NCBI RefSeq assembly: GCF_000327285.1
Contig: NZ_HE998570.1
Coordinates: 231,387-295,386 of the forward strand
DNA from: Holdemania massiliensis AP2
GTDB lineage: Bacteria > Bacillota_I > Bacilli_A > Erysipelotrichales > Erysipelotrichaceae
Length of the DNA: 64,000 nucleotides
Direction of reading: 5' to 3'
A model generated the notes under the pieces. It ran no database searches. It was not told where the DNA came from and saw only the letters and a list, made by a program, of their open reading frames with translations. Both the position numbers and the translations under genes were made by a program. Positions 10,710-31,502 of the stretch are shown one piece after another (within the stretch, counting starts at the first letter, position 1; every line of letters starts with the position of its first letter).

Positions 10710-10879
10710 TGTTTTGCCTCCTAACATAACTATATCATTTGATTAAAATCTATAGAAATTTTTTTAGTCTTTCTTTGATATTTCATTATAATATCCTTGC
10801 TAGTGTGACATAAGATTCCAGCAATCGCTGACGCTGTAAGAAAGAAGTATGATAAAATAAGAACAGAAAAAGGGGAAGT

Positions 10880-15122: not shown

Positions 15123-15132
15123 ATCGTCGCCG

Positions 15133-15162
15133 TTGAAAAAGAACCCGGACTTCCGTTACAAT
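15133..15162 (+). promoter_or_regulatory. Sigma-A promoter of the ArsC/yaaA/EamA operon
   Basis: TTGAAA (15133-15138), an 18-bp spacer, then TACAAT (15157-15162), about 33 bases before the first start codon. Confidence 0.6.
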
Positions 15163-15194
15163 AAAGACATTGAATTGAAATCAGGAGGAAAATC

Positions 15195-15542
15195 ATGTTA
15201 TTACTTTGTTATCCGAAGTGCAGTACATGCATGAAAGCAAAAAAACATTTGAATCAGCTGGGTGTGGTGTTTGATGAGCGCGATATTTCCCGGGAAAATC
15301 CGACGGCCGCGGAGCTGAAGCAGTGGATCGTCCGCAGCGGCCTTCCGGTTAAGAAATTCTTTAATACGTCCGGCAAGCTGTATCAGTCGCTGCAGCTGAA
15401 AGACCGACTTTTGCAGATGAGTGAAGCGGACATGATCGAGCTGTTGGCGAGCGACGGCATGCTTGTCAAACGTCCGCTGTTGATTGATCAGGATCGGGTG
15501 CTGGTCGGCTATCGGGCCGAGGCGTACGAACAGCTCGTATGA
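15195..15542 (+). CDS. ArsC/Spx-family thioredoxin-fold protein
   Basis: A 115-residue ArsC/Spx/YffB family protein. The N-terminal active-site loop is YPKCSTCMKA, with a CxxC at residues 9-12. FDERDISRENPTAAEL and VKRPLLIDQDRVLVGY are family blocks. It is probably a glutaredoxin-like reductase or Spx-like regulator and not necessarily an arsenate reductase, since no ars genes lie nearby. It overlaps yaaA by 4 bases. The company of yaaA favours a role in oxidative stress. Confidence 0.88.
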   Translation: MLLLCYPKCSTCMKAKKHLNQLGVVFDERDISRENPTAAELKQWIVRSGLPVKKFFNTSGKLYQSLQLKDRLLQMSEADMIELLASDGMLVKRPLLIDQDRVLVGYRAEAYEQLV

Positions 15543-16246
15543 AGATCCTGTTATCTCCTGCAAAAACGTTCCGCAAAGAAGCGCTGAGCAGCGTCCCTTC
15601 CATCCAAGCGCCGCGGTTTCCAGAAATGACAGAACAGCTTCATGAGGAATTGAAAAAGCTGACGGCGGCGCAGTGGCAGAAACAATTCAAACTGTCCGAG
15701 AAGGCGGCGCGGGAAAACGCCGCGCGTATGAATTCAGCGCAGCCGCTCACCGCCGCGCTGGCGGCTTTTCATGGAGAGGCGTTCCGCAGCTTTCATGCTG
15801 AAACGCTGAAAGCGGAAGACTGGCGGTATTGCGAGGAACATCTGCGGATTTTATCGGCTTACTATGGGCTGCTTCGGCCGCTCGACGCGATTGTGCCCTA
15901 TCGTTTAGACCCGGGGGATAAAATCGGAGGTTTGCTTCCATTAAACTTGTGGAAGCCGATCCTGACGCGGGCGCTGGCTGAAGAAGAGGTGCTGATCTTG
16001 GCTTCGCAGGAATACGCCCGGATGGTTGAAGCGGCGGATGCGGTTTTCGTGCAGTTTATGAAGAACGGCCGGAAAGCACCGTCGATGGAGGCTAAAAAGC
16101 TGCGCGGAACGATGGCGCGGCAGATTGTCGATCTCAAGCTGGAGCAGCGGAATGCAGTTCGTCAGCTCCAGGTTGGAAACTATCGGTATAACCCAGAACA
16201 ATCCCAAGCGAAGCTCTGGGTGTTTGAGGAAGGGGAACAAGAATGA
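15539..16246 (+). CDS. yaaA: YaaA, peroxide stress response protein
   Basis: A 235-residue UPF0246/YaaA protein. In E. coli, YaaA limits intracellular free iron and DNA damage during peroxide stress. The N-terminal signature MKILLSPAKTF is present, along with AYYGLLRPLDAIVPYRLD in the middle and a C-terminal YNPEQS-type segment. Length is slightly below the usual 250 or so. It overlaps the genes on both sides by 4 bases, so it is the middle gene of a tightly coupled operon. Confidence 0.92.
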   Translation: MKILLSPAKTFRKEALSSVPSIQAPRFPEMTEQLHEELKKLTAAQWQKQFKLSEKAARENAARMNSAQPLTAALAAFHGEAFRSFHAETLKAEDWRYCEEHLRILSAYYGLLRPLDAIVPYRLDPGDKIGGLLPLNLWKPILTRALAEEEVLILASQEYARMVEAADAVFVQFMKNGRKAPSMEAKKLRGTMARQIVDLKLEQRNAVRQLQVGNYRYNPEQSQAKLWVFEEGEQE

Positions 16247-17097
16247 AAAACAAAGGGGTTCAGTTTATTCTGTTATCCGCATTTTTCTTTGCGGTCATGA
16301 ATTTGTTCGTGAAATTATCCGGCGATCTGCCGTCCATTCAGAAAAGCTTCTTCCGCAATTTGGTCGCGGCCGGCGTCGCGGCGGTTATTCTGATCCGCGG
16401 CGGCCAGGGATTCCGCTTTCAGAAAAAGAATCTGCCGCTATTGATCCTGCGCTCAACGCTGGGTACGATTGGCATTCTGTGCAATTTCTACGCCGTTGAT
16501 CATCTGGTAATGTCCGACGCCTCGATGTTAAGCAAGCTTTCACCGTTTTTCGTCATTATTTTTTCGGCTGTTTTTCTCAAAGAAAAAGCCGATCCGGTGC
16601 AGAAGCTCAGCGTTGTTGCGGCCTTTGTCGGCAGTCTGTTCATCATCAAACCGGGGCTGCGGATCGATCAGATCGTTCCGTCTTTGATTGGCTTTGCCGG
16701 AGCGATGGCTGCCGGCAGTGCCTATACCTGTGTGCGGGGGCTGAGTCAGCGTGGGGAACGCGGCCCGCTGATCGTGTTTTTCTTTTCCGCTTTTTCCTGT
16801 CTGGCAACCCTGCCGTATTTGATGTTCAGCTTCGCACCGATGACGGGATTTCAGCTGGGATCGTTATTATTAGCGGGTGTTGCGGCAGCCTGCGCGCAGT
16901 TCAGCGTGACGGCGGCTTACAGCTATGCGCCGGCGAAGGAAATTTCCGTCTTTGATTATTCTCAGGTTGTATTTTCAGCTTTGCTGGGCTGGATTGTATT
17001 TGGTCAGATTCCCGATACCCTGTCATTTGTCGGCTACGCGGTGATCATTGCGGTCGCCGTGATGCTTTATCGGCATAATCGGAAGGTATCCAGCTGA
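16243..17097 (+). CDS. EamA-domain DMT-family transporter
   Basis: A 284-residue inner-membrane protein with two EamA repeats and ten predicted transmembrane helices. The helices are visible as regular hydrophobic stretches from GVQFILLSAFFFAVMNLFV to AVIIAVAVMLY. Family members export amino acids, nucleobases or other metabolites; specificity is unknown. It is the last gene of the operon, overlapping yaaA by 4 bases. Confidence 0.9.
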   Translation: MKNKGVQFILLSAFFFAVMNLFVKLSGDLPSIQKSFFRNLVAAGVAAVILIRGGQGFRFQKKNLPLLILRSTLGTIGILCNFYAVDHLVMSDASMLSKLSPFFVIIFSAVFLKEKADPVQKLSVVAAFVGSLFIIKPGLRIDQIVPSLIGFAGAMAAGSAYTCVRGLSQRGERGPLIVFFFSAFSCLATLPYLMFSFAPMTGFQLGSLLLAGVAAACAQFSVTAAYSYAPAKEISVFDYSQVVFSALLGWIVFGQIPDTLSFVGYAVIIAVAVMLYRHNRKVSS

Positions 17098-17119
17098 ACT
17101 TCGATAATTCAACATTTGA

Positions 17120-17160
17120 GAATAAAAAAAGAACGGAAATCCGAAAAATCAGATTCCGTC
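17120..17160 (-). terminator. Terminator of the locus regulator gene (minus strand)
   Basis: An imperfect inverted repeat (ACGGAA near 17133, TTCCGT near 17155) is followed on the minus strand by CTTTTTTTA. This fits termination of the gene ending at 17177. Confidence 0.55.
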
Positions 17161-17176
17161 ACGATGATTTCAGTTC

Positions 17177-18676
17177 TTATCGAGTCTCGGAAGCTTCCAG
17201 CCGGGCAATCAGACTATGAAGCTGGGCTTTGATCTCAGACCGCCGAAAACCCCGGTATCCGATTTCATCTGCAGTTCGATTTAAGTATTCCCAACAAAGT
17301 AAAATTCGCTGACGTTCGGCAAGTTCAATGACGTTCGGCGTTTTTTTATTTTGGAGGATAACCGCATGCTGATCCTCTTCAACCATAAACGTATAATCCG
17401 AACGCTGACTGCGATTCAGCGGAACAAAGTGATAATTCTGAACCTGTTCCAGCAGGTTCAGAATATTTTTCAAATGGGCCAGATATAAGGAAACCGTATA
17501 GGTGACGGGCAGAAAAATCGGCCCGCATGCCAAAGTTACAGTGACCTGTCCTGCCAGAACATCCTCTGGCTGAGCCAGATAACCAAGATCAATCAATTCT
17601 TCGTTCCGGCATGCCTGCATTAATTGAATTGCCTGAGCAAAATACCGGCTGATTTTCTTGTGGCCGTTTTGTTCTAAGATTTGAGTGCAATATTCAGTTA
17701 AGGCGCTGGGAGCCGTATTCATAGACAAGGCGGGTGTTTTCTGGATGCGGTTTCCCTGAGAACTGAAAAAATGGGTAAAGAGTCGCATCTGCGAATCGGG
17801 TGATTCATGATTGTGAAGCAGCGGCCGGCAAAGTGACAGATAATCATGAAATTCCGTCATATAGGTCTGAATCAAGGGCTCATCGGTAGCGAGAATGGTA
17901 ACACAGCTGTCTGTGCGGTGGGCGATAGAGTGAGAAGAAAGGACTAGTTTTCCGGGAATAATGAATAATGTGCGCCGGTGAACCCGGTCCCGAAGCCCTG
18001 GATAGTAATAGGCTTTGATTTTTCCGGTGGCATAAGCATTCAGCCAGCGTGTTAAGGATTGATAAGCCATCTCTGCCGACAGCGGTGGCGGTGCAATATG
18101 TACGAGCTGACAGCCTTTTTCGATTAAAGCAGCCAGCCAGTCCCGGTTGTCAGCAGAGTAAGGATCCGCCTCCTGAATCCAGGCGTCAGATTCATCCGAG
18201 TAAAGATAGACAACAGCCGAAGGCGCGATCGTTAAAGCCGTGTTGAAAAACAAAGCGGCGGCTGTCCGCTTTCCAGCATTGCCGTAATATAGTTTGTTTT
18301 TAGCATGAGTCGGCGAAAGACTGCCCACACCGGTGGTTTTTTTTAATTCCTCAGGCAAAAGTTTCGTATTCCGAGTTAAGAGGTCCTGTTCGCAAAGCCA
18401 GGTATATAAAATTTCCGTCAGCAGTTCCGGCTGAGCTGTTAACGAAGCTTTGACATTCAGCTTGTCGGCAATTGCCTGACGCTGCACTGAACAGGAGCAG
18501 CGCTTGGCAAAATAGGAACTCATGGATTTGAGCTGTTCAAGCTGACGGGGGCGATTGCGATCCCCAGTTCTGAGCCGGCTGATCAAGGATGGATCAACCT
18601 TGAGCTCCTGGGCTAACATCCGGTTTGAGGTTTGTGTGGTTTTCATCAGAAAGTCCAGCATTTCCCAAAATTGCAT
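17177..18676 (-). CDS. Large HTH regulator, divergent from the SipW/TasA-like operon
   Basis: A 499-residue protein I cannot assign to a named family. Residues about 5-60 read as an XRE-like helix-turn-helix: MLAQELKVDPSLISRLRTGDRN, a classic helix-turn-recognition-helix spacing. The remaining 430 or so residues have no recognised domain, no membrane segment and no signal peptide, and contain a soluble alpha/beta pattern. The start matches the first ATG after a TTCCT-complement ribosome site (AGGAGG on the minus strand, 8 bases upstream). It is transcribed away from the secretion locus across a 384-base region full of TGTCA inverted repeats. The likely role is locus-specific control, inferred from position and the HTH. 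Confidence 0.7.
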   Translation of the reverse strand: MQFWEMLDFLMKTTQTSNRMLAQELKVDPSLISRLRTGDRNRPRQLEQLKSMSSYFAKRCSCSVQRQAIADKLNVKASLTAQPELLTEILYTWLCEQDLLTRNTKLLPEELKKTTGVGSLSPTHAKNKLYYGNAGKRTAAALFFNTALTIAPSAVVYLYSDESDAWIQEADPYSADNRDWLAALIEKGCQLVHIAPPPLSAEMAYQSLTRWLNAYATGKIKAYYYPGLRDRVHRRTLFIIPGKLVLSSHSIAHRTDSCVTILATDEPLIQTYMTEFHDYLSLCRPLLHNHESPDSQMRLFTHFFSSQGNRIQKTPALSMNTAPSALTEYCTQILEQNGHKKISRYFAQAIQLMQACRNEELIDLGYLAQPEDVLAGQVTVTLACGPIFLPVTYTVSLYLAHLKNILNLLEQVQNYHFVPLNRSQRSDYTFMVEEDQHAVILQNKKTPNVIELAERQRILLCWEYLNRTADEIGYRGFRRSEIKAQLHSLIARLEASETR

Positions 18677-18730
18677 GGCGTATTCCTCCTTTTTTTAGTA
18701 TAAAACCGAATGTTAGAAATAACAACAATA

Positions 18731-18749
18731 ATGTCACAAATGGTGACAT
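18731..18749. promoter_or_regulatory. Inverted repeat ATGTCAC-N5-GTGACAT
   Basis: Perfect 7-bp arms with a 5-base centre. It lies 55 bases from the start of the divergent regulator gene, a typical operator position. Confidence 0.55.
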
Positions 18750-18752
18750 GAT

Positions 18753-18765
18753 TTGTCAATGACAA
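18753..18765. promoter_or_regulatory. Inverted repeat TTGTCA-A-TGACAA
   Basis: Perfect 6-bp arms around a single base, 3 bases after the previous repeat. It carries the same TGTCA half-site. Confidence 0.5.
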
Positions 18766-18830
18766 TTAACGCGATTATCTTGAATGTTAAAAACAAATCG
18801 GTTATCCTAAATTTGTATTTATATCGTTAT

Positions 18831-18858
18831 TGTCATATAAATTACACAATTAATGACA
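18831..18858. promoter_or_regulatory. Inverted repeat TGTCAT-N16-ATGACA
   Basis: Two TGTCAT half-sites face each other across 16 bases. This is the third TGTCA pair in the intergenic region. Confidence 0.4.
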
Positions 18859-18874
18859 GACCTAAATAAGCTTG

Positions 18875-18902
18875 AAAATTGCCATTTTAGGCAATTTTTT
18901 AT
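18875..18902 (+). terminator. Leader terminator upstream of the secretion operon
   Basis: AAAATTGCC (18875-18883) and GGCAATTTT (18890-18898) form a perfect stem around ATTTTA, followed by TT. It lies upstream of the first gene and downstream of the TGTCA sites. It either ends a short leader transcript or acts as an attenuator. Confidence 0.6.
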
Positions 18903-19060
18903 ATCTATAAATTAGGAAAGACCATGGCTAAAAAAGTGTACTTTTTTTGACGATTTAAATGTTTATGTAATTAATTCTAGTTATTCGTTCTTAGTTAAGT
19001 GATTTTGTTCGGTTTAAATGAAGAAAAAAGCAACAACTAGATTTGATCAGGGGGGATGGC

Positions 19061-19687
19061 ATGAATGAGAAGAAAAAAAGAATTTCATTCCGGAGTATTC
19101 TGAATGTTCTTCTTTGCGCTATCTTGATTCCGATTATTCTTATTAATTTAGTCTTGATTCTACGTGGCTATCTGCATCCGGAAGAACTGCCGGGAATCTT
19201 TGGGATAAAACCCGCTGTCGTCTTATCGGGCTCCATGGAGCCGACGATTAAAATCGGAGATCTGATTTTGGTTCACAGCGTGGATTCCGCTTCGCTGAAG
19301 AAAGGCGATGTGGTTTGCTACTTATATTCAGGGAAGGCGGTTACACACCGAATTCTGGAGATAACCCAAGATGCTGAAGGCCGGATTCAATATGTGACTC
19401 AGGGAGATGCCAATAATGTCCGGGATGATCAGGCCGTAAGACCGGAGCAGATTCAGGGGATTTATAAAGGTGAGCGGTTTTCCGGTTTGGGTCAGGCCAT
19501 CCTGTTTATGCAGTCAACACAGGGAATGGTTTTGTTTATCCTTTGCCCGCTGTTCTTGTTTTTGATCTGGGATCTCTGGCGCCGGCGTCAGCTGGATCAG
19601 GCAGAGGCAAAACGAACGGCTGAGCTTGAAGCTGAGCTGGCTGCACTCAAAGCGGAAAAAGAAACTGCAGCCAAGGATCAGCCTTAG
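19061..19687 (+). CDS. ER-type (SipW-like) signal peptidase I
   Basis: A 208-residue membrane signal peptidase of the archaeal/ER type, the class that includes B. subtilis SipW. TM1 is near residues 10-35; the catalytic Ser58 lies in LSGSMEPTIK, and the usual bacterial Lys is replaced by His96 in AVTHRI. A second TM (about 155-175) is followed by a charged, Ala/Glu-rich cytoplasmic tail of about 30 residues. The start at 19061 follows AGGGGGG; an in-frame TTG 18 bases earlier lies within the Shine-Dalgarno and is rejected. The dedicated substrates are likely the subunits encoded just downstream. Confidence 0.92.
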   Translation: MNEKKKRISFRSILNVLLCAILIPIILINLVLILRGYLHPEELPGIFGIKPAVVLSGSMEPTIKIGDLILVHSVDSASLKKGDVVCYLYSGKAVTHRILEITQDAEGRIQYVTQGDANNVRDDQAVRPEQIQGIYKGERFSGLGQAILFMQSTQGMVLFILCPLFLFLIWDLWRRRQLDQAEAKRTAELEAELAALKAEKETAAKDQP

Positions 19688-19824
19688 TTTATATGTGCCA
19701 GCCTGCCAAAACGAGATACAGGCTGTACAGACTCGGAATTTTCCGGGGAGATATAAATTGCTTTTGCGCAATTGAAAGCAAACTTGGAGGGGAAATTTCC
19801 CAATAAAGAAAGCGAGGAGCTTGT

Positions 19825-20451
19825 ATGAAGAAAAAAGTTTATGCAGCACGCCTGGGCGTCACCGCCCTCGCTCTAACGTTGGTCACAACCTGTCTTATGG
19901 GTTCTACCTTAGCACGTTACGTTACTGAGGTAACCGGTTCAGCCAGTGCAGCCGTGGCTAAGTGGTCATTTAAGGCCAATGATAGCGCTGGAAGCACAGC
20001 ATTTACTAACATTGATCTAGGAAAGACTGTTGCTTACGATTCAACTACGATTAAAGCGGGGGTGATTGCGCCGGGAACATCCGGTTCGTTTAACATTGTC
20101 ATCGACGGTACGGACAGCGAAGTTGGAATCGACTATGAAATTAAGTTGGAAGCAGCAACTGATACCACGTTCCCTGATGATATGGTGTTTTCAACAGAAG
20201 CGATTACTGAAGCAAAGCCTGGAAAGGGTTTTAGTGAGTTCATAAAAACAGCTATAAAAGGTTCTGTAGATCAGTCAGATGGCGCTGAGGCAATGAAGAA
20301 AACAGTCACAATTTATTGGGCTTGGCCTTTGGACGGAGGAGCGGACAAAGACGCTAAAGATACTGCTATGAATGACAAGGATTTGTCAATCGACATCACT
20401 GTTACCGGCAAGCAGGCAGCCCCTAAACCAACACCAGCATCAGCAAGCTGA
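19825..20451 (+). CDS. TasA/camelysin-like major subunit with SipW-type signal peptide
   Basis: A 208-residue secreted protein. The hydrophobic N-terminus is followed by the SipW-cognate pattern GSTLARYVTEVTGSASAAVA, with predicted cleavage near residue 31 (after LA). The mature part is a beta-rich domain like TasA/camelysin: IAPGTSGSFNIVIDG then VTIYWAWPLDGG and DLSIDITVTG. It ends in a short Pro/Ala/Ser tail. GAGGAG precedes the ATG. A terminator-like hairpin follows the gene, which would make this the most abundant product of the locus. The role as a fibre subunit is inferred from TasA. Confidence 0.82.
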   Translation: MKKKVYAARLGVTALALTLVTTCLMGSTLARYVTEVTGSASAAVAKWSFKANDSAGSTAFTNIDLGKTVAYDSTTIKAGVIAPGTSGSFNIVIDGTDSEVGIDYEIKLEAATDTTFPDDMVFSTEAITEAKPGKGFSEFIKTAIKGSVDQSDGAEAMKKTVTIYWAWPLDGGADKDAKDTAMNDKDLSIDITVTGKQAAPKPTPASAS

Positions 20452-20522
20452 TCGCAGGAAAGATGAAGGATTCCTTCAAAAACAAAGACTTTGATATCAA
20501 GGGCATTCAGCCCAGGCAATCG

Positions 20523-20546
20523 GGCGTGGAACAGCCACGCCTTTTG
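20523..20546 (+). terminator. Partial terminator after the major subunit gene
   Basis: GGCGTGG (20523-20529), loop AACAG, CCACGCC (20535-20541), then TTTTG. The short T-run suggests partial read-through into the downstream genes. Confidence 0.6.
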
Positions 20547-20583
20547 CCGTTGATTGTCCGTTCCTAAGAGGGAGGGGATCGTG

Positions 20584-22068
20584 ATGGAAGCAAAAGCAGT
20601 GTTTAAGACTGGTAAAAATGAACAAAAGAACAAAAGAGGCGGACATCTGTGGTTTCTTTTGCTGATTTTTATAGCGTTAGTCACATCCAGTATTCTCGGA
20701 TTTATTCTGGGCAGACAAACAGGATCCATGCCCTTAGGCCAAATCGTCGATACCATTGTATTGGAACCGGAGGTGCCGGTGTTTCATTTATCTGGTCAGA
20801 CGTTATATACAGATGGCTCTCCGGCAGCCGGATTGAGGATGCAGCTGCATAGTGAACCGATGGAAACGCAGACCGATTCCACCGGGAACTTTTTGTTTCC
20901 AAAAGTTGAACAGGGAGAACATATCATGTCGGTGCTGAGCGCATCCGGTGATGTACTGGCTCAGCGGGAAGTCCAGATTTTACGTCAAAATCAAACCAGT
21001 CAAGCCAACGTTAAACTCACTGAAACAGGCAGTTATGTGATTGAACTTTCCGTGGATGTTCGAGTTCTGGAAATTACGATTGAATTGGATCAAGACCGTT
21101 TCTTTATTGATCCTAATCTGACTTTCAGCACTTCAGAGGGACTGGTCAGTACGCCGTATGGAACCGCCAATATCAGTCAGGGGACGATTGTTACGCCGCA
21201 GGGAAATATTTATCTGACAGACGGCCATGTGATTTTTCCCGGAGGAACACAGGAGGATCCGACTAAAATCCTGCTTCCGGATGATCAGGTGATCATGGAT
21301 CGTCCATTGTCTAGCGAGGCCTATGACGTGACCCGTGAAGGCGTTGTAACCCTGCCTGATGGAACTGTGATTAAACCAGGAGGACAAATCATAACCAATG
21401 AAGGAATACAGGAAAGGCCGGGCGAAACAGGGGTTATTGTCAGTCAACAGACAGTAACGCCAATCGGTTCTTCCCGCGAAGAAGAAACTCAAAAACCTGA
21501 GCCAACACCAGAAGTTGGAGATCTGTCAGAACCCTCTGAAGAGATTGGAGTGCAGGAGCCGGAGAAACCAGAAGAAGAAATTAAGCCGACTTTGCCGCCT
21601 TATATTGATCCTGGGGAAACCAAAATCTCCGCTTCACAGAAGGATGGAAGCTTCACATCCTGGGACCAGCACCGCACGCTTGACTTATTCTACAACCAGA
21701 CGACCGGTCGGAATGAAAAGATAGCACCGGGTTCTCAAGGCTATTATTTATTTCAGCTTGAAAATGAGCGTCAGGAAAAACTGATCATCACGTTGACCTT
21801 TACAAAGGAAGCAGGCAGTCCTTATCTGCCGTTAGTATTTACGCTGCAGCCTTATCAGAAAACAGGGAATCCAGTTTCCGGAACGTTAACGCAGGATCAG
21901 CCGCTGACATTAAAGAGTGAGATGGAAGCAAAGTCTACCATGATTTATCGCTTGGACTGGCAATGGCCGTGGGACAGCGGAATGGATGAGGCGGACACCT
22001 TGGCGGGGAAACAGGGAGGAACGTACAAACTGAATTTAGCCCTTCATCTTGAAGGGGTACATGAATGA
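20584..22068 (+). CDS. Membrane-anchored protein with carboxypeptidase-regulatory-like and TasA-like domains
   Basis: A 494-residue protein. A basic cytoplasmic N-terminus precedes one TM (about 25-47) with no cleavage motif. A Cna-B/carboxypeptidase-regulatory-like beta domain follows (about 62-130, LYTDGSPAAGLRMQLHS). Then come strand repeats of the form TPYG/TPQG/LPDG with G-TIV or G-VVT (about 185-295) and an acidic Pro/Glu linker (about 305-345). The C-terminal domain resembles the TasA-like subunit: IAPGSQGYYLFQLEN and YRLDWQWPWDSGMDE match IAPGTSGSFNIVIDG and VTIYWAWPLDGGADK. The ATG at 20584 follows GGAGGGG by 6 bases. A likely role is a fibre anchor. Confidence 0.75.
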   Translation: MEAKAVFKTGKNEQKNKRGGHLWFLLLIFIALVTSSILGFILGRQTGSMPLGQIVDTIVLEPEVPVFHLSGQTLYTDGSPAAGLRMQLHSEPMETQTDSTGNFLFPKVEQGEHIMSVLSASGDVLAQREVQILRQNQTSQANVKLTETGSYVIELSVDVRVLEITIELDQDRFFIDPNLTFSTSEGLVSTPYGTANISQGTIVTPQGNIYLTDGHVIFPGGTQEDPTKILLPDDQVIMDRPLSSEAYDVTREGVVTLPDGTVIKPGGQIITNEGIQERPGETGVIVSQQTVTPIGSSREEETQKPEPTPEVGDLSEPSEEIGVQEPEKPEEEIKPTLPPYIDPGETKISASQKDGSFTSWDQHRTLDLFYNQTTGRNEKIAPGSQGYYLFQLENERQEKLIITLTFTKEAGSPYLPLVFTLQPYQKTGNPVSGTLTQDQPLTLKSEMEAKSTMIYRLDWQWPWDSGMDEADTLAGKQGGTYKLNLALHLEGVHE

Positions 22069-22562
22069 ATCAGGAATGTCCATCCCTCTGGAAAAAAGGG
22101 TTTAAGGTTATCATCCTAATACTTCTTTTGACGGCAGGTCTGACGTTGATCAAAACCTATTCGTCCCATTCAAGGATAAAACGATTTGGATATTCTTTTC
22201 TCGTTGTGACCTCCGGCAGTATGGAACCGGTGCTTACGCCGGGGGATTTGATTATCGTTCAGGCTCAATCTGAATATCGGGCGGGAGAGATTGTAACGTA
22301 TCCGGCAGATGGATTTCTGGTTACTCATCGGGTTAAGGAAATCGTGGATGAGAATTTGATTCTGCAGGGAGATGCCAACAATGCCGCTGACGCGAACCCT
22401 GTGCCGGCAGAACAGATTTTAGGCAAAGTCATCCTCACCGTACCGTGGCTTGGACACGCTGCGCTTTTCTTAAAAACGCCGGTTGGATTTTTGTGTTTTC
22501 TGGTTATCGGGTTCTTGATTGAGTGCGGATTATCCTGGCTGAGTAAAAAAAGAAAGGAGTAA
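22065..22562 (+). CDS. Second ER-type (SipW-like) signal peptidase I
   Basis: A 165-residue signal peptidase. TM1 is near residues 12-30, the catalytic Ser52 lies in VTSGSMEPVL and the general base His88 in LVTHRV, and TM2 is near 138-158. It is shorter than the first peptidase of the locus, has no long C-terminal tail, and is clearly a divergent paralogue. It overlaps the anchor gene by 4 bases. A second peptidase in the same operon suggests division of labour among the substrates. Confidence 0.92.
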   Translation: MNQECPSLWKKGFKVIILILLLTAGLTLIKTYSSHSRIKRFGYSFLVVTSGSMEPVLTPGDLIIVQAQSEYRAGEIVTYPADGFLVTHRVKEIVDENLILQGDANNAADANPVPAEQILGKVILTVPWLGHAALFLKTPVGFLCFLVIGFLIECGLSWLSKKRKE

Positions 22563-22566
22563 GCGA

Positions 22567-23124
22567 ATGAAAAAGCATTTGACAAAGGCGAGAATCTTCA
22601 GTTACGGCTGCTATTTTCTGCTCGCTTGCACTTTAGTCTTAGGCGCAACGTATGCCCGCTTTAATACTGAAATCACAGGCTCTGCTGGGGGGGAAACTGC
22701 GGAGGTTCTGATGGATGTCGCCAGCAAGGAAATTACCGATCAGCTGAAAGGGATAACACCAAAGAATCCAGTAATAATTGAATTCTCGGTGGTTAACTTC
22801 AAACAAGAAGAGGGTAGCCAAAAGATCAGCGAGGTCGCTCAGGAATATACGGTAACCGTGAAAACAATGGGAAATCTGCCGCTTAACTTTACGTTAAGCG
22901 CTGTTGGATCAACGTCAGCGGATTATATAAAAACGTTTCAGGTTTCCCCATCAGATCCGACGCAGTGGATGGGAATTGGCGGCAGGCTGCCAATAGGATA
23001 TGCAGTTAATCACACGTATCAGTTAAGCGTCAACTGGACCGGGTCCGAGGACTATGAGAAGTATCTGGATGAAATCGACCGAGTCTTGTTGATCATTGAA
23101 GCGAAACAAGTTCAGCCACAGTGA
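22567..23124 (+). CDS. Second TasA-like subunit with SipW-type signal peptide
   Basis: A 185-residue secreted protein. Its signal region ends GATYARFNTEITGSAGG, the same processing pattern as the major subunit, with predicted cleavage after YA near residue 29. The mature part has a beta-sandwich look (EYTVTVKTMGNLPLNFTLS, HTYQLSVNWTG). It starts 4 bases after the second peptidase, so the pair may form a dedicated enzyme and substrate. It resembles minor matrix subunits such as B. subtilis TapA in position only. Confidence 0.75.
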   Translation: MKKHLTKARIFSYGCYFLLACTLVLGATYARFNTEITGSAGGETAEVLMDVASKEITDQLKGITPKNPVIIEFSVVNFKQEEGSQKISEVAQEYTVTVKTMGNLPLNFTLSAVGSTSADYIKTFQVSPSDPTQWMGIGGRLPIGYAVNHTYQLSVNWTGSEDYEKYLDEIDRVLLIIEAKQVQPQ

Positions 23125-23138
23125 AAGGGGACGATGAA

Positions 23139-23873
23139 ATGAAAGCGAAGAAAAAGTTTCCAATCCAAGGCTTTGGGATTGCTTTTTTTAGTCTGCTTCT
23201 CATCCTTGGAGTGCTGGCGATCCGAACAACGGCAGGCCGTTATCTGATTCAAAAGCAAAGCAGTCAGGCGGCAGAGCCTCAGAATTTCTTTTTCGCCAGC
23301 GACTTGCTTCAGGCAGATTCTGCACTGTATTATATTGATCCGAAGACAAGCTCGTTTGCGATTCAGCTTTATAATTATGAACCGGACAACAGCCTGCGGC
23401 ATACGACTGCGGATATCCAGTATTCGATTGAAGTGACAGGGGGAACGGCTTCCCCAACAACGGGATTCTTGAGTGGGGAAAAGGCTAGTTTAGTAACATT
23501 GAAGATTACCCCAACAGACAAAGAAGCCGTAAAAGTTACAGTCAATGCGGCAGAGCCTTATAAAAAAACACTAAAGGCGCAATTTGTTTTTGCGAAAGGA
23601 AATCAATATTCCATCACGGATAATATAGGAAATAAAGCGGCGGTTTTAACCATGATCAGCACAGACAGCGGCGGTAGAATTGAATTAACTCTGCCAGCGG
23701 GTATAATCGCGGATCCGACAGACAGCCGTCTGGAAAAAACAAATTCTTCGCTTTATTTTAATTCGCCTGGTTCAGGTATTTATTCACTTGTTTTGTTGAA
23801 AAATGACACGAACCATGACTGGACTCGACCAGAAACAGAGTTTGCCAATAAAATAGAAATCAATGAGAAGTGA
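23139..23873 (+). CDS. Third secreted subunit with a degenerate SipW-type signal
   Basis: A 244-residue secreted protein. The hydrophobic segment at about 8-27 is followed by RTTAGRYLIQKQSSQAAEPQNFFFASD, a weaker version of the A-R-Y/F processing pattern. The mature region looks beta-rich (SSFAIQLYNYEPD, ADIQYSIEVTGGT). The ATG at 23139 follows AAAGGGG by about 8 bases; a GTG 18 bases earlier overlaps the previous stop and is less likely. Its family is otherwise unrecognised. It overlaps the frame of the giant gene only if that gene used its early start, which is not favoured. Confidence 0.65.
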   Translation: MKAKKKFPIQGFGIAFFSLLLILGVLAIRTTAGRYLIQKQSSQAAEPQNFFFASDLLQADSALYYIDPKTSSFAIQLYNYEPDNSLRHTTADIQYSIEVTGGTASPTTGFLSGEKASLVTLKITPTDKEAVKVTVNAAEPYKKTLKAQFVFAKGNQYSITDNIGNKAAVLTMISTDSGGRIELTLPAGIIADPTDSRLEKTNSSLYFNSPGSGIYSLVLLKNDTNHDWTRPETEFANKIEINEK

Positions 23874-23914
23874 ATTGGATGATTCATTTCATCTGGGCAA
23901 AGGAGGGAAACATC

Positions 23915-26900
23915 ATGAAAGAAAAACGAAAGTTGAGTAACTTAAAACATCATGAACATCGTCTTTTAACGATGCTGGTGACCGTCTGTCTGCTTTTGGG
24001 AACGATTCAGGGTAAGTCTTCGGTTATCCGTGCCGAAAGTTCAGCCGCAGTATTTCAAATTGGCGATCAGGCGGTAGCCATTTTGGAGAATGGCCGTTTG
24101 ACCGTGTCCGGCAGCGGAGATACCTATGACTATGAAGCACAGACCAGTCCCTTCCTGCATGACAGAGAAAAGATTCAGTCAATCAGAATTGAAGAAGGAA
24201 TCACGTATATCGGGGCTTATCTGTTCTATAATTTGGGTCAGGTAAGCGGTATTCTTGAACTGCCTTCGACAATTTTGGGAATGGGGGAAGCGGCGTTTTC
24301 AGGCGATAATTTTGAAAATGCTCCAAAGTTTACAGGAATCCGCAATCATTTCGTCAGCGGTGTGATTGAGCAGGAATTCAAGCAGGAGGAAGGCGGGGAA
24401 CTTCCAGGATCAAAAGGGAATGAAACTCCCCCTTCAGCTTCGCCGGAAGGGCCTGAGCATTCAGAAGGAACGCCGGATTCAGATTTGGATCACAATTCTG
24501 CTTCAGAAGAAGCTCCCGCGATGGAGGATGAAGAAACCAATGCGGAAACTGAAACTCCTTTGCTGCCGACACCGTGGCCGGCCGTCAATGAACCGGTCAA
24601 AGCGGCGGGCAGTCAGACGGGCATAGTTAAGCTGACGGTTGATCAGGAAGCGGAAAATGAATCCGGATCGATTCCGATTGTGGAACAGCGGATTGCTAAT
24701 CCATCGACGCTGTTTTACGCCGGTCAGTCGGGGTATGTTGTGTGTTCTCAACAAAACACAACTTTTCTGAAAGCGGCAGAGGACGCGGGATATCAAAGTG
24801 CTGAAGAATTCGCTGAAATCAGTCTGGATGATTGTTTGCGGATAACTTTACCGATGACACAAGGACAGATTCAACTCCCGGAATGTCCGGAAACGCTTAT
24901 GCAGTCCGCAGGGGAAGATCCGCTGTTTAAGCTCTCTTTTCACGGCTGGTCAAAGACAAAACCGGATGATTTGCAAGCCGAAGCGCTCACGGCTTTGACT
25001 CCAGGCGAAAGTCTGGACCTTGGTGATGATAAAAGTTTATCACTTTATTCAATATGGAAGCTTGTCCCGCAATATACCCTCTCAGTTCATACGGAATTTT
25101 CTAATTCGGCATCTGTTATCTATTCCTTAATTGATTCGCGAACCGGAGAAGAATTTATCGCACCCTCAGGATTCCGTCTGCAGTATCAATGGCAGTATCG
25201 CAATCCCAATGAGGAAGTCTGGCGGAATATTGAGAACGCAGACCAAAGTATGTATCAAAGAGAAATTCAGCCTGAGGACAATAAACGTCAATTTCGCTGC
25301 GGTATTCAGGCTGTCAGTTTAATGCGGGCTGTTCAACCGGGTGAATTCAAAACGTTGTATTCCGATCCGGCAGCAGGCATAACTGAAAACACGGCAATTT
25401 ATATTGATCAAACGAATGGAAATGATAACAACACAGGTCTGTCTGATAAGAACGCTGTAGCCACCTTTGAAAAAGCCTTAAGTTTTTTAAAATCCATGGA
25501 TGAGGGAGGCAGCCTGGAAAACAACACGCTTATCATCATAGGAAAATATAATTTTTCAGTTGATGCTGCTGCTGGAACAACGATTTCGCTTTTGGAAGAA
25601 GGAAAACCTGCGACGATCAAAGGGGCAACACCCGAGGCGGCCCTTATCGGCATTGATTCAAACCCTAGCGGGAATGATAATGACTGCGGAATTGAAGTTC
25701 TGGCTGATGTAAAAATCGAATCAATTCAGCTTCAATGTTTAAATCACTTTTATGGGAACGGACATAACATCACCTTGGGCGAGGGTGTTTCTAATACAGG
25801 ATTAAAAAGTTCGATTTATCTTTATGGGGGAGGACGGTCTGTCATTAAAGATTCTGTCGGTGAAATTTCCGTTTCCAGCGGCAACATTGTGAGAATCGTC
25901 GGTTATGTCCGCAGCTTCAGCGGAATCAATTTGGAGGCCGGGAATAAACTGTCCAAGATCACGGTAAAGAATAATGCCTCCGTGGGCACAATTGTCGCCG
26001 GCGTAGCCAGCGGCGGAGTAAGCAACGGAAATGTTGAGATCAATGTAGAAGGAGGCTCGGTCACCAGCATTCTGGGTGGTAATCAAGGCTTTAATAATAC
26101 CGCGGCAGCTTATGTGGGCCGCACCAATATCAATATATCCGGAGGAAAAGTAGGTACGGTCTGGGGGGCGGGTACAGGCCGAATTGTCAGTATTCCTACT
26201 TTTCAGGGTGCTTTGAATATGAATATTACTGGCGGAAGTGTTGCGGAAATCTATGGCGCCGGCTCTGCGGCATATACAGTAAGCCCAGCGTCAGGTGAAA
26301 AAACAAAAGTAACGATCACTGTTGAAAACGCAACAGTGGGTACTATTTATGCTGCGGGAAAAGGTGCGGATTCGGCAATTAAAACAACGGACGCCTATAA
26401 GGACTTAACTAAAGATCCTAAAGACTTCGGCAGTTTTACCGGAGAATTTAAAATTGAGGCAGGCTCTGGAGCCCTCATCACAGGGGATATTTACGGCAGC
26501 GGAGCAGGCGTCGTCAAAGGCAATACCATTACTTATGAAACGAATGAGAATGCTTACTTTAAGGGTCAGGGAGAAATTTTGATCAATAAGGGGGCTGTTG
26601 TCCAAGGCAGCGTCTACGGCGGCGGAAAAGGAGTTGCTGAAAATGGATATGAGAAATGTGCCCGGATTTGCGAGGATTCAAGCGTCAACGTTGTTTTAAA
26701 CGGCGGCCAGATTCAGGGCAGTATCTTTGGCGGCGGTCAGACTGCGGGAGTTTTAGGATCAACGTCAGTAGAAATTAAAAGTGGCACGGTGATTGGGAAT
26801 GTTTACGGCGGCGGTAAACAGGGCCTGGTAACGGGGAAGGCGAATGTCACAATCCAGGGCGGAACAATGGAAAGTTCTGTTTATGGCGGCGCCCTGGGTG

Positions 26901-29900
26901 AAACCGAAAAATTTATGCTTTTAGGAGGCGCGACAGTGAACATGACCGGCGGATGGATTCGAGGGAATCTGTATGGCGGCAGTGAGCTCAGCAATGATGG
27001 TAAGGAAGGAAACAAACCAGAAGCAGGTTGGCCGGATATCGTTTTCGTCAATCTTGTCGGCGGAACTGTCAGCGGAAAAGTTTTTGGCGGTGGTTATCGT
27101 GGGATCGTGAACGGATCAACTCATCTGCATATCGGCTCCGGGGCAATGGATGAATGTCTGTATTACCAGAATCATTCCGCTGAGAAACCAGCGCTGACTT
27201 GTTCGGAACTGGAAGTGCGGGATTCGGTTTACGCGGGCGGTGATTACGGCGGAGCGGACGCCAAAGACTATTCAAAAATTACCGTTCAGGGAACTTCCCA
27301 TGTGTATATCGACGGGACCGGATATAAAACAGGAAATTCATTGACAGCTCCGGAAATGAAAATTGACGGCGGCGTCTTTGGCAGCGGAGCTTCCTGCGAT
27401 GCGGGTTCTACGCGGTTAGTTACGCTGAAAAATTATGGCGGGGCAACACGCGGGGAAGGAAGTAACGGTGTTCTTGATGTGTCAAGAACTTTATCTGCGA
27501 TTCAGCGGGCTGACCGTGTTACTCTAATCAACTCGCATGTTCGCCTGACCGGATTAAGCGATATTGCGAATACCAACCAAACAGCGTTATATTCCCTGAA
27601 TCGAATTGGCGATCATGGGAAAGTTGCCGAGGACTATGATAATGGACTGGTGCTTCAAGGCGGAAGTACGCTTGTGCTGGAATCCGCAATGATAGAAACC
27701 GCAAATTTTAAAAGTATGGATCTTAATGGGAAGAATGCCTTGACTCAGGAAACTTTGAAAGCTTCCCCCAATACAGTAAAATTTGAAACCGGCACTGTGT
27801 TTCAAGTGTCGTATGAAGGCTTAAAAGAAACTCTGTATGGCGCCGTAATTGGCTATGCATATATGCAGGCGGCGGAAAAAGCCAGTGTTTATGCTTATGC
27901 CCGGCCTAAAATTACTGATGCCAGTTCTATAATGAATAAGGATGACGGCGGATTTGTTGCCGTCACGGAAACCGAACCTATGAAAGAAATCCCTTATCAG
28001 AATGTGGAAACAAATTATCGGTATTGGCAGCTTTCTGGAGAAAATGCCAGCGCCGATCGGCAGACTGTATTAACCGCGCAGAAAATAGAGGGAGAGGAAG
28101 GTTTTTTAGTCGCGGAAGGCGTCGTTGAACTGCCGCAATTATTGCAGGAATCACACTATAAAATTGAAAGCATCACATTGCCGAATGGCTTGGTGCTGGT
28201 ACAAGCTGCGATGGATGGGACAAGCAAGTGGATTGATGAAAGTATTAATAAGTCCTCTGGGGAAACTTCTGAAAATATGATCAAGTTAGCTCAAGATACA
28301 ATGCAAATGAATCCACTGACTTGTTTCGGTTTATTTATGGAGATTGGCGAAGGTTTTGATACAACGGATACATCCAATACGGTTGGTAAAATAATATCCG
28401 CAGATTCAATAAAATCAGAGAGTTCTTCTTCCATTGTGGGGCAAACGAGTCCAAGCGCGCAGGCCAATTCCCGGCCGAAATTGAATTTCTATCTAACCTA
28501 CTATAACCCAGGAATCACTGCGAGTACCGATCTAGGAAAAGTAGAGATTTTATTAGCGGTGGTTGATGGAATAAATAATCATGAAAAGATAGAAATCAGC
28601 GTTGATATTCTAACCCAGGCAAATTCGCTGGAAGATCAGACGGTGGACTTGTATGCGACGTCCAATGGCAGTTACACTGGACAGCTGATCATTCCAGCCG
28701 GTGCTGACAGAGAGCTGAGTCTGACAAGTGTTGTATCAAAGCCTGAGAATATGGTGCCCAAAGCATCGAACTATACTCAGCATCAATTCTCCGTCGCGAT
28801 GGTTCCGGCTCCTTCTCAGGGCTGGATGAGCGCTGGATTGATGACAGAGGCTTGTGATTTGAAAGAGGTGTCGAAACCGGTCACGATTGGGAAAACGGAT
28901 AGTCGTTATCAAGCGGTGATTAATTTCACGTTGGAGAATAACGGACAATTCCAAGCGAAAAATGAATCGGATAAGGTTGAATTAAAGCTGACTGAAGGGA
29001 CGGGGAAAACGGTTACGATCACGCTGAGAATTCATTGGCAGGAATCAATTGTAAGAAAGATTACAGCCCAGCCGGGCCGGAAATACAATCTTGCTTCATT
29101 GAATTCGGCGGCAAACTTAGAAATCAATCGGTACAGTTCACTGACCGTAGAATTTGAGCTGGCAGGCAGTCCTTCGATGAAGGATTTGTGGCTGGAATTC
29201 AGAGATGAGAAGGGGAATGCAGCACTGCCCAAAGCAGCCCGGTTGACGTTGATTCACGGATCTGATTATTATGTTTATTCAATAACCGGCAACGAAGCTA
29301 AAGGTCAAATTCTGTTATCTGAATTCCGCAGCATTGAAGATAACACAACAATCGAAAGCGGTGTCAGCAAGCCGATCAGGGTTATTGTCGATTTTGATAA
29401 AGCGGAAATCTCGGTTGGGGCGTACACGCTGCGTCTGCGGAATTCAACGGGCGCCGATACGCAGTGGTGTACACTGACGGTGAATAATGAAGCAGCGAAT
29501 ATCGCTGAATTCAGTCGAACAGAACCCGATCCTGTCTTTACGAAAGATAAAGTAAACCTGAATTTGGAAGTAACGCCTTCGTCGGATACTCGTTATACGG
29601 AGGTCGGCGCCGTGTTCGGCTTAGAGGCCGGTCAGCGCTTTCCTGAAGGAACAGTCTTTACTTATGCTGGGAAGGCCTACTATCCGGCTCAGGATCAGGT
29701 TTATATTCCCCTAGGCGCAGGGGGTGATTATTCTATAGAATTGGATACAACTCAGTCTGCGGGATTCACGGAGGGTGAGGTCTCGTTAAATGCAAAAATT
29801 TTCCCGATGGGTGAAAATGCGGTGAACAGCAAAGGGGAAAGTTTAGAGCGTTCGCTGGCTATGACTGTGAAAAAAGAGAAGGAAACCGGGCTGAACGTTG

Positions 29901-30202
29901 AATTGGCGGAAGGCAGCCGGATTTTCAAGGCGGATGAAGGGAGATCTTTCAAGTTCAGCGTAACTTATTTGAGCGACGCGAGTGAAACGGTGGAGGTGAT
30001 ACCGCAAACCAAGACAGCGGAGGGAAACTATGAATTTTCTGCGGACTGGAAAATTGAGCAAGAAGATTCTGCCGATTCTAACAAGAATGGCCGAACTAAA
30101 ATCATAACAGTAACACCTCCGCAATCCATCCCGGCCGGAACGTATCGGCTGAGATTTAAAGCGGCAGGACAGGAAGTGCCTTACAATCTCATTGCGGAAT
30201 AA
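23915..30202 (+). CDS. Giant secreted repeat protein (2095 residues)
   Basis: Signal sequence near residues 18-42. A short BspA-like leucine-rich segment follows (about 85-145, IQSIRIEEGITYIG), then an acidic Pro/Glu/Ser linker to about 250. A pectin-lyase-like entry block lies near 494 (IYIDQTNGNDNNTGL). A long glycine-rich right-handed beta-helix runs from about 595 to 1170, with repeated GG-T/S-V-x-G-x-V-YGGG units. The remaining 900 residues are probably several Ig-like beta domains. The C-terminus (PYNLIAE) has no LPXTG, GW or SLH anchor. The ATG at 23915 follows AGGAGGG. It is the last gene of the locus and is likely carried on the surface through the co-encoded subunits. Confidence 0.85.
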   Translation: MKEKRKLSNLKHHEHRLLTMLVTVCLLLGTIQGKSSVIRAESSAAVFQIGDQAVAILENGRLTVSGSGDTYDYEAQTSPFLHDREKIQSIRIEEGITYIGAYLFYNLGQVSGILELPSTILGMGEAAFSGDNFENAPKFTGIRNHFVSGVIEQEFKQEEGGELPGSKGNETPPSASPEGPEHSEGTPDSDLDHNSASEEAPAMEDEETNAETETPLLPTPWPAVNEPVKAAGSQTGIVKLTVDQEAENESGSIPIVEQRIANPSTLFYAGQSGYVVCSQQNTTFLKAAEDAGYQSAEEFAEISLDDCLRITLPMTQGQIQLPECPETLMQSAGEDPLFKLSFHGWSKTKPDDLQAEALTALTPGESLDLGDDKSLSLYSIWKLVPQYTLSVHTEFSNSASVIYSLIDSRTGEEFIAPSGFRLQYQWQYRNPNEEVWRNIENADQSMYQREIQPEDNKRQFRCGIQAVSLMRAVQPGEFKTLYSDPAAGITENTAIYIDQTNGNDNNTGLSDKNAVATFEKALSFLKSMDEGGSLENNTLIIIGKYNFSVDAAAGTTISLLEEGKPATIKGATPEAALIGIDSNPSGNDNDCGIEVLADVKIESIQLQCLNHFYGNGHNITLGEGVSNTGLKSSIYLYGGGRSVIKDSVGEISVSSGNIVRIVGYVRSFSGINLEAGNKLSKITVKNNASVGTIVAGVASGGVSNGNVEINVEGGSVTSILGGNQGFNNTAAAYVGRTNINISGGKVGTVWGAGTGRIVSIPTFQGALNMNITGGSVAEIYGAGSAAYTVSPASGEKTKVTITVENATVGTIYAAGKGADSAIKTTDAYKDLTKDPKDFGSFTGEFKIEAGSGALITGDIYGSGAGVVKGNTITYETNENAYFKGQGEILINKGAVVQGSVYGGGKGVAENGYEKCARICEDSSVNVVLNGGQIQGSIFGGGQTAGVLGSTSVEIKSGTVIGNVYGGGKQGLVTGKANVTIQGGTMESSVYGGALGETEKFMLLGGATVNMTGGWIRGNLYGGSELSNDGKEGNKPEAGWPDIVFVNLVGGTVSGKVFGGGYRGIVNGSTHLHIGSGAMDECLYYQNHSAEKPALTCSELEVRDSVYAGGDYGGADAKDYSKITVQGTSHVYIDGTGYKTGNSLTAPEMKIDGGVFGSGASCDAGSTRLVTLKNYGGATRGEGSNGVLDVSRTLSAIQRADRVTLINSHVRLTGLSDIANTNQTALYSLNRIGDHGKVAEDYDNGLVLQGGSTLVLESAMIETANFKSMDLNGKNALTQETLKASPNTVKFETGTVFQVSYEGLKETLYGAVIGYAYMQAAEKASVYAYARPKITDASSIMNKDDGGFVAVTETEPMKEIPYQNVETNYRYWQLSGENASADRQTVLTAQKIEGEEGFLVAEGVVELPQLLQESHYKIESITLPNGLVLVQAAMDGTSKWIDESINKSSGETSENMIKLAQDTMQMNPLTCFGLFMEIGEGFDTTDTSNTVGKIISADSIKSESSSSIVGQTSPSAQANSRPKLNFYLTYYNPGITASTDLGKVEILLAVVDGINNHEKIEISVDILTQANSLEDQTVDLYATSNGSYTGQLIIPAGADRELSLTSVVSKPENMVPKASNYTQHQFSVAMVPAPSQGWMSAGLMTEACDLKEVSKPVTIGKTDSRYQAVINFTLENNGQFQAKNESDKVELKLTEGTGKTVTITLRIHWQESIVRKITAQPGRKYNLASLNSAANLEINRYSSLTVEFELAGSPSMKDLWLEFRDEKGNAALPKAARLTLIHGSDYYVYSITGNEAKGQILLSEFRSIEDNTTIESGVSKPIRVIVDFDKAEISVGAYTLRLRNSTGADTQWCTLTVNNEAANIAEFSRTEPDPVFTKDKVNLNLEVTPSSDTRYTEVGAVFGLEAGQRFPEGTVFTYAGKAYYPAQDQVYIPLGAGGDYSIELDTTQSAGFTEGEVSLNAKIFPMGENAVNSKGESLERSLAMTVKKEKETGLNVELAEGSRIFKADEGRSFKFSVTYLSDASETVEVIPQTKTAEGNYEFSADWKIEQEDSADSNKNGRTKIITVTPPQSIPAGTYRLRFKAAGQEVPYNLIAE

Positions 30203-30232
30203 AACAAGTCTGAGAAATTATGTTATCATGCA

Positions 30233-30270
30233 AAACAGCGGCTGTTCAAAGCGAACAGCCGCTGTTTGTC
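30233..30270 (+). terminator. Terminator-like hairpin after the giant gene
   Basis: A perfect 15-bp stem, 30233-30247 with 30253-30267, around AAAGC. The T-run is short on the plus strand (TTTG). Confidence 0.7.
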
Positions 30271-30363
30271 TGGGATCCAAGCATGCCGCACTCGCGGAAG
30301 ATTCCCGCTGTTGACTTGGCGGATGATCCTGCTAAAATTTATGATAGAAAAAGAGGAATCAGA

Positions 30364-30501
30364 ATGAAATTAAGCGCGGGACAATATCGAAGAAAAAGGC
30401 CGGAGAAAAGGATTGGGCGGCCGCTTCCAGCTGGGAAAGGTCGGTTGTCGGAAGATTTTCCTAAGCAAAAGAGCAGAGATGAGAGGAAGCTTGTTTTATG
30501 A
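30364..30501 (+). CDS. Possible small basic protein upstream of the HD gene
   Basis: A 45-codon frame (MKLSAGQYRRKRPEKRIGR onward) with AGAGGAA about 6 bases before its ATG. Its stop overlaps the HD gene start by 4 bases (ATGA), as many real gene pairs in this window do. The product would be very basic and matches no family I know. It may simply be a translated leader; low confidence. Confidence 0.3.
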   Translation: MKLSAGQYRRKRPEKRIGRPLPAGKGRLSEDFPKQKSRDERKLVL

Positions 30502-31502
30502 TCCGCGAAGGGATTTTATTTCCGATCCTGAACGAATCGATTCCGGACTGGCTTTGCGAGTTCGCGCAGACGCCGGCGATGCAGCGGCTAAAGGGAATTG
30601 GAATGAACTGCGGTTTGGAGTACACCCGGTTTCCTATTTACCGGCATCTGACAAAGCCGTATTCCCGCTATGAACACAGCATCGGCACGGCCTTAATCAT
30701 CTGGCATTTTACGCAGGATCTGGCACAAAGCGCGGCAGGATTGTTCCACGATATCAGCACGCCTGTTTTTGCCCATGTGATTGATTTTCTTAATCATGAT
30801 CATCTCAGGCAGGAATCGACGGAAGGTCCGACCCGGCAGATCATAGAAAAGGATCCCCAGCTGCAGCGTTTGTTAAAAAAGTGGGGCCTGCATCCATCGC
30901 AGGTGGCGGATTATCATCAATACCCCATTGCCGATAATGATTCTCCCCAGCTGTCTGCCGACCGGCTGGAATATACGTTGGGCAACGCTATTGCGTTTCA
31001 AGCTTATCCGCTTGTCCGATTACAGGCGCTGGTCGATGATCTGGCAGTGTCCGCAGATGAACATGGACAGCCGGAGCTGGTCTTTCGATCCTTTGCCCGG
31101 GCTAAAGAATTTGCCCGGCTGGCCTTGATTAATTCGTGGATTTATGTGGCGGATGAGGATCGGTATGCCATGCAGCGGCTGGCGAATTTGATCCGTCAGG
31201 CGCTGACGTTGCAAGTTCTTGCCCCGCAGGATCTGATGAGCAGCGAAGCGCAGGTGATTGCCAAGCTGAAAAATGATCCGCAGACGGCTGACGCCTGGGA
31301 GGCTTATTGCCAATGGGATCATGTGCGGCGGCATCCGCATCCGGAAAATCAAGCTGACTGGCTGCAGATTCCTGCCAAGCTTCGCTGGATTGACTCGCTA
31401 GTGCGGGGCCAAGGCCGGCTCAGTCAAATCGATTCTTTTTATCAAGCGGAAATTGAACAATTTTTGCGGCAGGATCAAACGGTTTGGCTGCGTGCTGATT
31501 AA
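30498..31502 (+). CDS. HD-superfamily phosphohydrolase
   Basis: A 334-residue cytosolic HD-domain protein. The metal-binding residues are seen as RYEHSIGTAL (His near 60) and AAGLFHDISTPVFAHVID (HD near 83), as in dGTPase-like and YpgQ/YedJ-type hydrolases. The C-terminal half is all-helical. The substrate (nucleotide or cyclic dinucleotide) is not predictable from sequence. The start is supported by GAGAGGAAG and overlaps the small frame before it. Confidence 0.85.
   Translation: MIREGILFPILNESIPDWLCEFAQTPAMQRLKGIGMNCGLEYTRFPIYRHLTKPYSRYEHSIGTALIIWHFTQDLAQSAAGLFHDISTPVFAHVIDFLNHDHLRQESTEGPTRQIIEKDPQLQRLLKKWGLHPSQVADYHQYPIADNDSPQLSADRLEYTLGNAIAFQAYPLVRLQALVDDLAVSADEHGQPELVFRSFARAKEFARLALINSWIYVADEDRYAMQRLANLIRQALTLQVLAPQDLMSSEAQVIAKLKNDPQTADAWEAYCQWDHVRRHPHPENQADWLQIPAKLRWIDSLVRGQGRLSQIDSFYQAEIEQFLRQDQTVWLRAD

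Follow-up and report, generated by a model that had tools for sequence, protein, structure and literature searches.

The locus considered here lies within a window of 64,000 nucleotides, the whole stretch of DNA that was analyzed. Eight open reading frames are present between positions 17177 and 30202, at the coordinates listed by an earlier note on this sequence: seven collinear genes directed rightward (19061-30202) and a divergent HTH gene upstream of them. Starts were chosen by the presence of an ATG with a purine-rich sequence upstream, which places the first codons of peptidase 1, the anchor, SubC, and the giant at 19061, 20584, 23139, and 23915, respectively; the last of these agrees with the 2095 residues previously given for the giant protein. 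The features are as follows.

17098..30497, no strand: island of 13.4 kb; at this site two congeners lack it and have an ATGA overlap of the flanking genes
17177..18676, minus strand: HTH-domain protein, 499 aa, divergent, within the island
19061..19687, plus strand: peptidase 1 (SipW1), a signal peptidase of the ER type whose cytoplasmic tail is coiled-coil-like (TIGR02228, 96.6 bits; own clade)
19825..20451, plus strand: SubA, SipW-type secreted subunit, proposed main fiber subunit (open reading frame, profile comparison, structure model)
20515..20548, plus strand: hairpin 3' of SubA, GGCAATCGGGCGTGGAACAGCCACGCCTTTTGCC, terminator/attenuator-like (fold z -3.9)
20584..22068, plus strand: anchor, with a membrane segment, a CarboxypepD_reg-like beta domain, a linker, and a SubA-like C-terminal domain (profiles, model)
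22065..22562, plus strand: peptidase 2 (SipW2) (TIGR02228, 85.6 bits)
22567..23124, plus strand: SubB, SipW-type secreted subunit, relative of SubA (hhalign 97.1% to SubA)
23139..23873, plus strand: SubC, secreted protein of SipW type that may act as an adaptor to the giant (leader sequence, gene order)
23915..30202, plus strand: giant secreted protein, 2095 aa, with an ordinary Sec leader, a BspA-LRR-like N-terminal part, YGGG-type repeats, and a beta-rich C terminus, without LPXTG
30233..30267, plus strand: perfect 15-bp hairpin 3' of the giant gene (fold z -3.9), with no T run after it

Close packing of the genes starts at the anchor, and two large intergenic gaps flank SubA, one before and one after it. 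The hairpin downstream of the giant gene is the likely end of the transcription unit. When Pfam and NCBIfam profiles were used, no island protein except the two peptidases matched a named family above cut-off; sub-threshold resemblance was seen for a CarboxypepD_reg-like stretch in the anchor and a short BspA-LRR-like stretch in the giant.

Both peptidases exceed the curated cut-off of TIGR02228 (SipW/ER-type, S26B-like; 51.85 bits), and in 14 aligned peptidases Ser58, located in an S-M-E-P-like motif, His96, located in T-H-R, and Asp116 are invariant. The scores and the invariant active-site Ser and His thus confirm the presence of two ER-type signal peptidases. The Bacillus SipW equivalog NF046067 (cut-off of 190 bits) was not reached by either protein (100.3 and 87.3 bits), and both fell outside the Bacillaceae SipW clade in a tree of 59 peptidases. 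In this tree, first and second peptidases were labeled by position; the scan loci had been retrieved because they resemble peptidase 1 and are therefore biased towards it. Peptidase 1 of 13 loci formed a single clade (94/90; present in 98% of bootstrap trees) to which neither the second peptidases nor Bacillaceae SipW belonged, and the second peptidases did not form one clade. Since peptidase 1 stands in a clade of its own, separate from peptidase 2, a recent tandem duplication was rejected. The description of this locus as one that "doubles the peptidase" is therefore misleading: by their placement in the tree, peptidases 1 and 2 are old separate lineages. As for the role of the second enzyme, one relative (L122) carries a fusion of a second-type peptidase with a SubB-like domain, and at the equivalent place another (L120) encodes a long protein whose end resembles SubB. 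These arrangements suggest that peptidase 2 and SubB may act together.

Other SipW-linked genes were encountered in the course of this analysis. The genome of the window encodes a third SipW-like peptidase (L073, G000:C3:378302-378736; long form, 329 aa frame), which has counterparts in the congeners G002 and G003. A second SipW-linked set, in which the peptidase is accompanied by a DUF2357 protein and by a membrane-type protein of ~510-525 aa, was found in L121 (8665-12812), L122, L124, L126, L127, and L138 (1121-6448). Its hosts are Bacilli with small genomes and genomes of Ruminococcus type, and several of its copies have SubC-like proteins and YGGG giants beside them.

The three predicted substrates have lysine-rich, hydrophobic leaders that end in T-L-A-R-Y (SubA), T-Y-A-R-F (SubB), and T-A-G-R-Y (SubC), as in SipW substrates, in line with the three SipW-type substrates proposed before. 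Profile comparison by hhalign related SubA to the C terminus of the anchor (98.9%, E 1e-17) and to SubB (97.1%), and SubB to the anchor C terminus (93.5%), with shuffled controls at ~0; the anchor profile, when run against the phylum, also recovered SubA in the window's own genome. At the level of profiles, SubA, SubB, and the anchor C terminus are one family, to which SubC was not linked by the same comparison. The N terminus of the anchor contains a hydrophobic segment. Across loci, anchors of 217-1027 aa consist of a membrane segment, a variable Ig-like stalk (CarboxypepD_reg, Big_2, or Cadherin-like), and a SubA-like end, and in L095 a protein with the same SubA-like C-terminal domain finishes in a PNTGD sorting-signal-like tail. 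The varied stalks and the PNTGD tail suggest that conservation applies to the subunit-like domain held at the envelope and not to the way in which it is held there.

The relationship of these proteins to TasA was assessed from sequence and from predicted fold. SubA had no TasA/camelysin match in Pfam or NCBIfam, SubB remained below the cut-off of Peptidase_M73 (E 0.077, 13.3 bits versus 22.5), and comparison of SubA with Bacillaceae TasA profiles revealed a short P-G-x-x-x-x-x-F-x-L motif in register and nothing more. With no family match and one short motif, membership of the subunits in TasA/camelysin by sequence was rejected. Structure models were built on 8-9 sequences from the window and related loci. 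For the SubA model (pLDDT 64.6, moderate), the top match of 986 chains was the TasA fiber 8aur, with 141 residues at 4.5 A and a Z of 6.3, which is weak and within the range of common beta-sandwich arrangements. The fold matches of SubA also list the donor-strand pilins CsuA/B and FimG and the archaeal bundling pilin 7ueg, among virus capsid jelly-rolls. The model is evidence for, although not proof of, a TasA-like fold of SubA that would be capable of donor-strand assembly. The C-terminal domain of the anchor was predicted fairly confidently as a jelly-roll (pLDDT about 70-87), and its top folds were 4-1BB ligand and an enterotoxin C-terminal domain (Z up to 7.8); as generic jelly-rolls, these were rejected as relatives. 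A TasA fold shared by the subunits, as the earlier note had supposed, is thus upheld in part: SubA, SubB, and the anchor C terminus belong together and 8aur is the top match of SubA, but the Z of 6.3 is weak, the pLDDT of 65 is moderate, and SubC is unlinked. Likewise, the proposed anchor with a TasA-like C terminus has the membrane segment and a SubA-homologous C terminus, while the best folds of that domain are unrelated jelly-rolls.

A lack of conserved synteny in relatives had been named as the result that would count against the proposed locus. All seven genes were found in the same order in L058 (G067, from another family of the order), with identities to the window of 50% for peptidase 1, 39% for SubA, 32% for the anchor, 32% for SubB, 29% for SubC, and 30% for the giant. 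The seven-gene order is repeated in L116, a locus from a further family of the class; its giant matched the profile of the window and L058 giants, from which it had been left out, at 2e-42, the matching part being repetitive. A first contig scan of genomes with the anchor alignment yielded no relatives. With peptidase 1 as query against the named genomes, 80 loci were obtained. The core order, peptidase 1, SubA, anchor, peptidase 2, and a SubB-like gene, is seen in L129, L130, L134, L140, and L159, up to the contig end in L128, and with one extra gene in L119; L117, L118, L120, L123, and L136 contain the core in part. The hosts of L128-L130, L134, L140, and L159 are uncultured gut or rumen Bacilli, Clostridia, and one "Tenericutes" genome, and fragments of the core occur in 0.8-1.8 Mb genomes of the class. 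The seven-gene order is therefore shared with two other loci and its core with further Bacilli and with Clostridia. Together with the membrane anchor, this kept gene order substantiates the view of a self-contained SipW/TasA-type surface locus.

In contrast to the core, the giant is not a fixed component. YGGG-repeat giants with ordinary Sec leaders are encoded in the window, L058, and L116. In L094, peptidase 1, SubA, anchor, peptidase 2, and SubB are followed by a quite different giant of 2470 aa with 11 DUF285 stretches, and the giant of L117 has nine Listeria-Bacteroides repeats; both have SipW-type leaders and lie directly 3' of SubB, with no SubC between. A 513-578 aa protein takes the giant's place in L129, L134, and L159, and some loci have no giant at all. 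As judged from the encoded proteins, both the anchor stalk and the giant are exchanged between loci. In the few examples in which the giant starts with a SipW-type leader, SubC is missing, and we therefore propose that SubC may serve as an adaptor. The L117 giant (10571-16732) ends, after its SipW-type leader and repeats, in a tyrosine-phosphatase-family domain.

In each of the 15 loci examined, SubA is followed by a strong hairpin ahead of the next gene (z from -2.2 to -7.9), and the hairpin sequences are unrelated. Its recurrence at the same place suggests over-expression of SubA, which by this logic may be the abundant subunit. In Clostridium perfringens, a predicted terminator 3' of bsaA, with read-through, gives rise to a separate short sipW-bsaA transcript (PMC7395162).

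The island is bounded on the left by an EamA-type transporter gene (16243-17097; 93-94% protein identity to the congeners G002 and G003) and on the right by a gene for an HD-domain-type protein (30498-31502; 71-72% identity to the same two). In G002 and G003, both of the same genus, these two genes overlap by four bases, ATGA; in the window they are 13.4 kb apart. Since the flanking genes overlap in two congeners, the seven genes probably arrived together with the HTH gene as one 13.4-kb insertion; under the alternative, a deletion in other species would have had to recreate the four-base overlap exactly, which is much less probable. The G+C content of the island is 44-48%, slightly under that of most flanking 2-kb segments. 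Mobile-element ends or a recombinase were also considered and rejected, as no repeats flank the island at its borders and no recombinase gene is present in it. The anchor was present in 4 of 295 genomes of the order (four genera, two families), a distribution that fits horizontal spread. The HTH gene was not found beside the locus in the other relatives searched and is rare in relatives, and it was rejected as a conserved regulator of the system; yet it lies within the island and probably entered the window's genome together with the locus. The right neighbor is far less congener-like than the left one, and either faster evolution or replacement along with the island is possible.

Taken together, the island probably encodes a TasA-like donor-strand surface fiber with a membrane-bound base and exchangeable giant cargo. 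In the proposed mechanism, the subunits would be exported by Sec and their leaders cut by the SipW peptidases, which would free an N-terminal strand. SubA, in excess owing to the hairpin, would polymerize by donating this strand to the next subunit; donor-strand exchange is how TasA fibers form (PMC9674648). The SubA-like domain of the anchor would remain tied to the membrane through its stalk and, since it would have no freed strand of its own and could act as a strand acceptor only, would form the base. SubB, paired with peptidase 2, may be a start, stop, or minor subunit, and SubC would couple the ordinary-leader giant to the fiber, with the giant as an outward, adhesin-like part. We infer the tie between giant and fiber from gene order only.

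The main rival, which we consider less likely, is secretion and display without a fiber: a few surface proteins would be released by the SipW peptidases, and a short assembly of SubA, SubB, and SubC on the anchor would keep the giant at the surface. Homology between the base domain and the subunits is established here and polymerization is proposed, the giants are at least as long as any plausible stalk, and some loci have none, all of which would suit such a complex. On the other hand, the SubA hairpin in 15 loci suggests that one subunit is needed in excess, and the closest studied arrangement, C. perfringens sipW-bsaA, makes filaments (PMC7395162). Far less probable is a spore-coat or sporulation-matrix locus in place of a fiber on growing cells, a reading prompted by the original finding of TasA in association with spores (PMC9674648). 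Sporulation genes were not seen beside the locus. In L058 (G067) the gene directly 5' of peptidase 1 encodes a GGDEF-EAL protein with a SnoaL-like N terminus (3394-5166) and stops some 20 bases short of the peptidase gene, an arrangement compatible with surface or biofilm control in that genome only. Parts of the core also occur in genomes of 0.8-1.8 Mb, which are too small for sporulation to be expected. Finally, a chance neighborhood of unrelated SipW-linked secreted proteins that merely resembles one system is scarcely credible: SipW loci of the order are diverse and often have several secreted proteins, but five to seven genes stand in one order across Bacilli and Clostridia, and in the window's genome they were probably inserted as a block.

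The proposed fiber was compared with systems that use SipW-dependent or TasA-type subunits, namely, TasA, BsaA, and CapP/CalY (PMC9674648, PMC10151520, PMC7395162, and PMC13082335). With Bacillus subtilis tapA-sipW-tasA the island shares an ER-type signal peptidase with dedicated substrates and a beta-sandwich subunit: the best structural match of SubA is the TasA fiber, and donor-strand assembly is proposed here. It differs in having two peptidase lineages, giant cargo, and a tethered SubA-like base in TapA's place, and in subunits without sequence-level membership in the TasA family; family profiles alone gave no TapA match for any island protein. The C. perfringens sipW-bsaABCRSD locus likewise has, in this order, a peptidase, a main subunit, a predicted terminator where the island and its relatives have the hairpin, and further secreted proteins, and its BsaA filaments depend on sipW. 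That locus has one peptidase and a two-component system (PMC7395162), whereas the island encodes a second peptidase, an anchor, and an HTH protein, with no kinase or response regulator among its genes that would correspond to BsaRS. The TasA/CalY/CapP filaments of Bacillus cereus are, like the proposed fiber, sortase-independent and combine at least two structural subunits with an accessory protein (PMC13082335); a second peptidase, a tethered subunit-like base, and a giant do not appear in the abstract that describes them.

Relative to the accessible descriptions of these systems (PMC9674648, PMC10151520, PMC7395162, and PMC13082335), a second peptidase lineage in one locus, a tethered subunit-like base, and swappable giants are new, and a partial literature search found no description of two-peptidase SipW loci in gut bacteria. 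We tentatively suggest that these loci may represent a distinct, horizontally moving, sortase-independent class of Gram-positive pilus, spread in gut Bacilli and Clostridia. Such a class would be defined by two different signal peptidases, by a base in the form of a main-subunit copy tethered to the membrane, and by a giant tip protein that can be exchanged. The two peptidase lineages with different substrates suggest an ordered, staged release of subunits. The attachment of TasA-type fibers to the cell is only partly understood, and a stalk-tethered subunit-like domain would provide a concrete, testable base. Swapped giants on a constant core resemble the modular tips of other pili, and such swapping would give gut bacteria an easy change of adhesion target.

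Unlike loci for sortase-dependent pili, the island contains no sortase and its giant has no sorting signal; among relatives, the PNTGD tail is found in L095. The vWA/Cna_B-type SipW clusters found in the same order of bacteria (L055-L057, L059, and L060) also encode a giant surface protein, and L055-L057 have two SipW genes and several SipW-type substrates, but the peptidases of these clusters lie outside the peptidase 1 clade, the clusters contain vWA or Cna_B proteins and LPXTG-like tails, and no SubA-type anchor was found in them. All five of these clusters contain many SipW-type substrates together with LPXTG-like proteins, and two of them are located in the congener G003, which does not have the window's locus. 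Tyrosine-recombinase-like genes lie a few kb from SipW genes in two genomes (L058, 1005-1886; L059, 11061-11957); the two are alike by eye and may be linked to the mobility of SipW loci.
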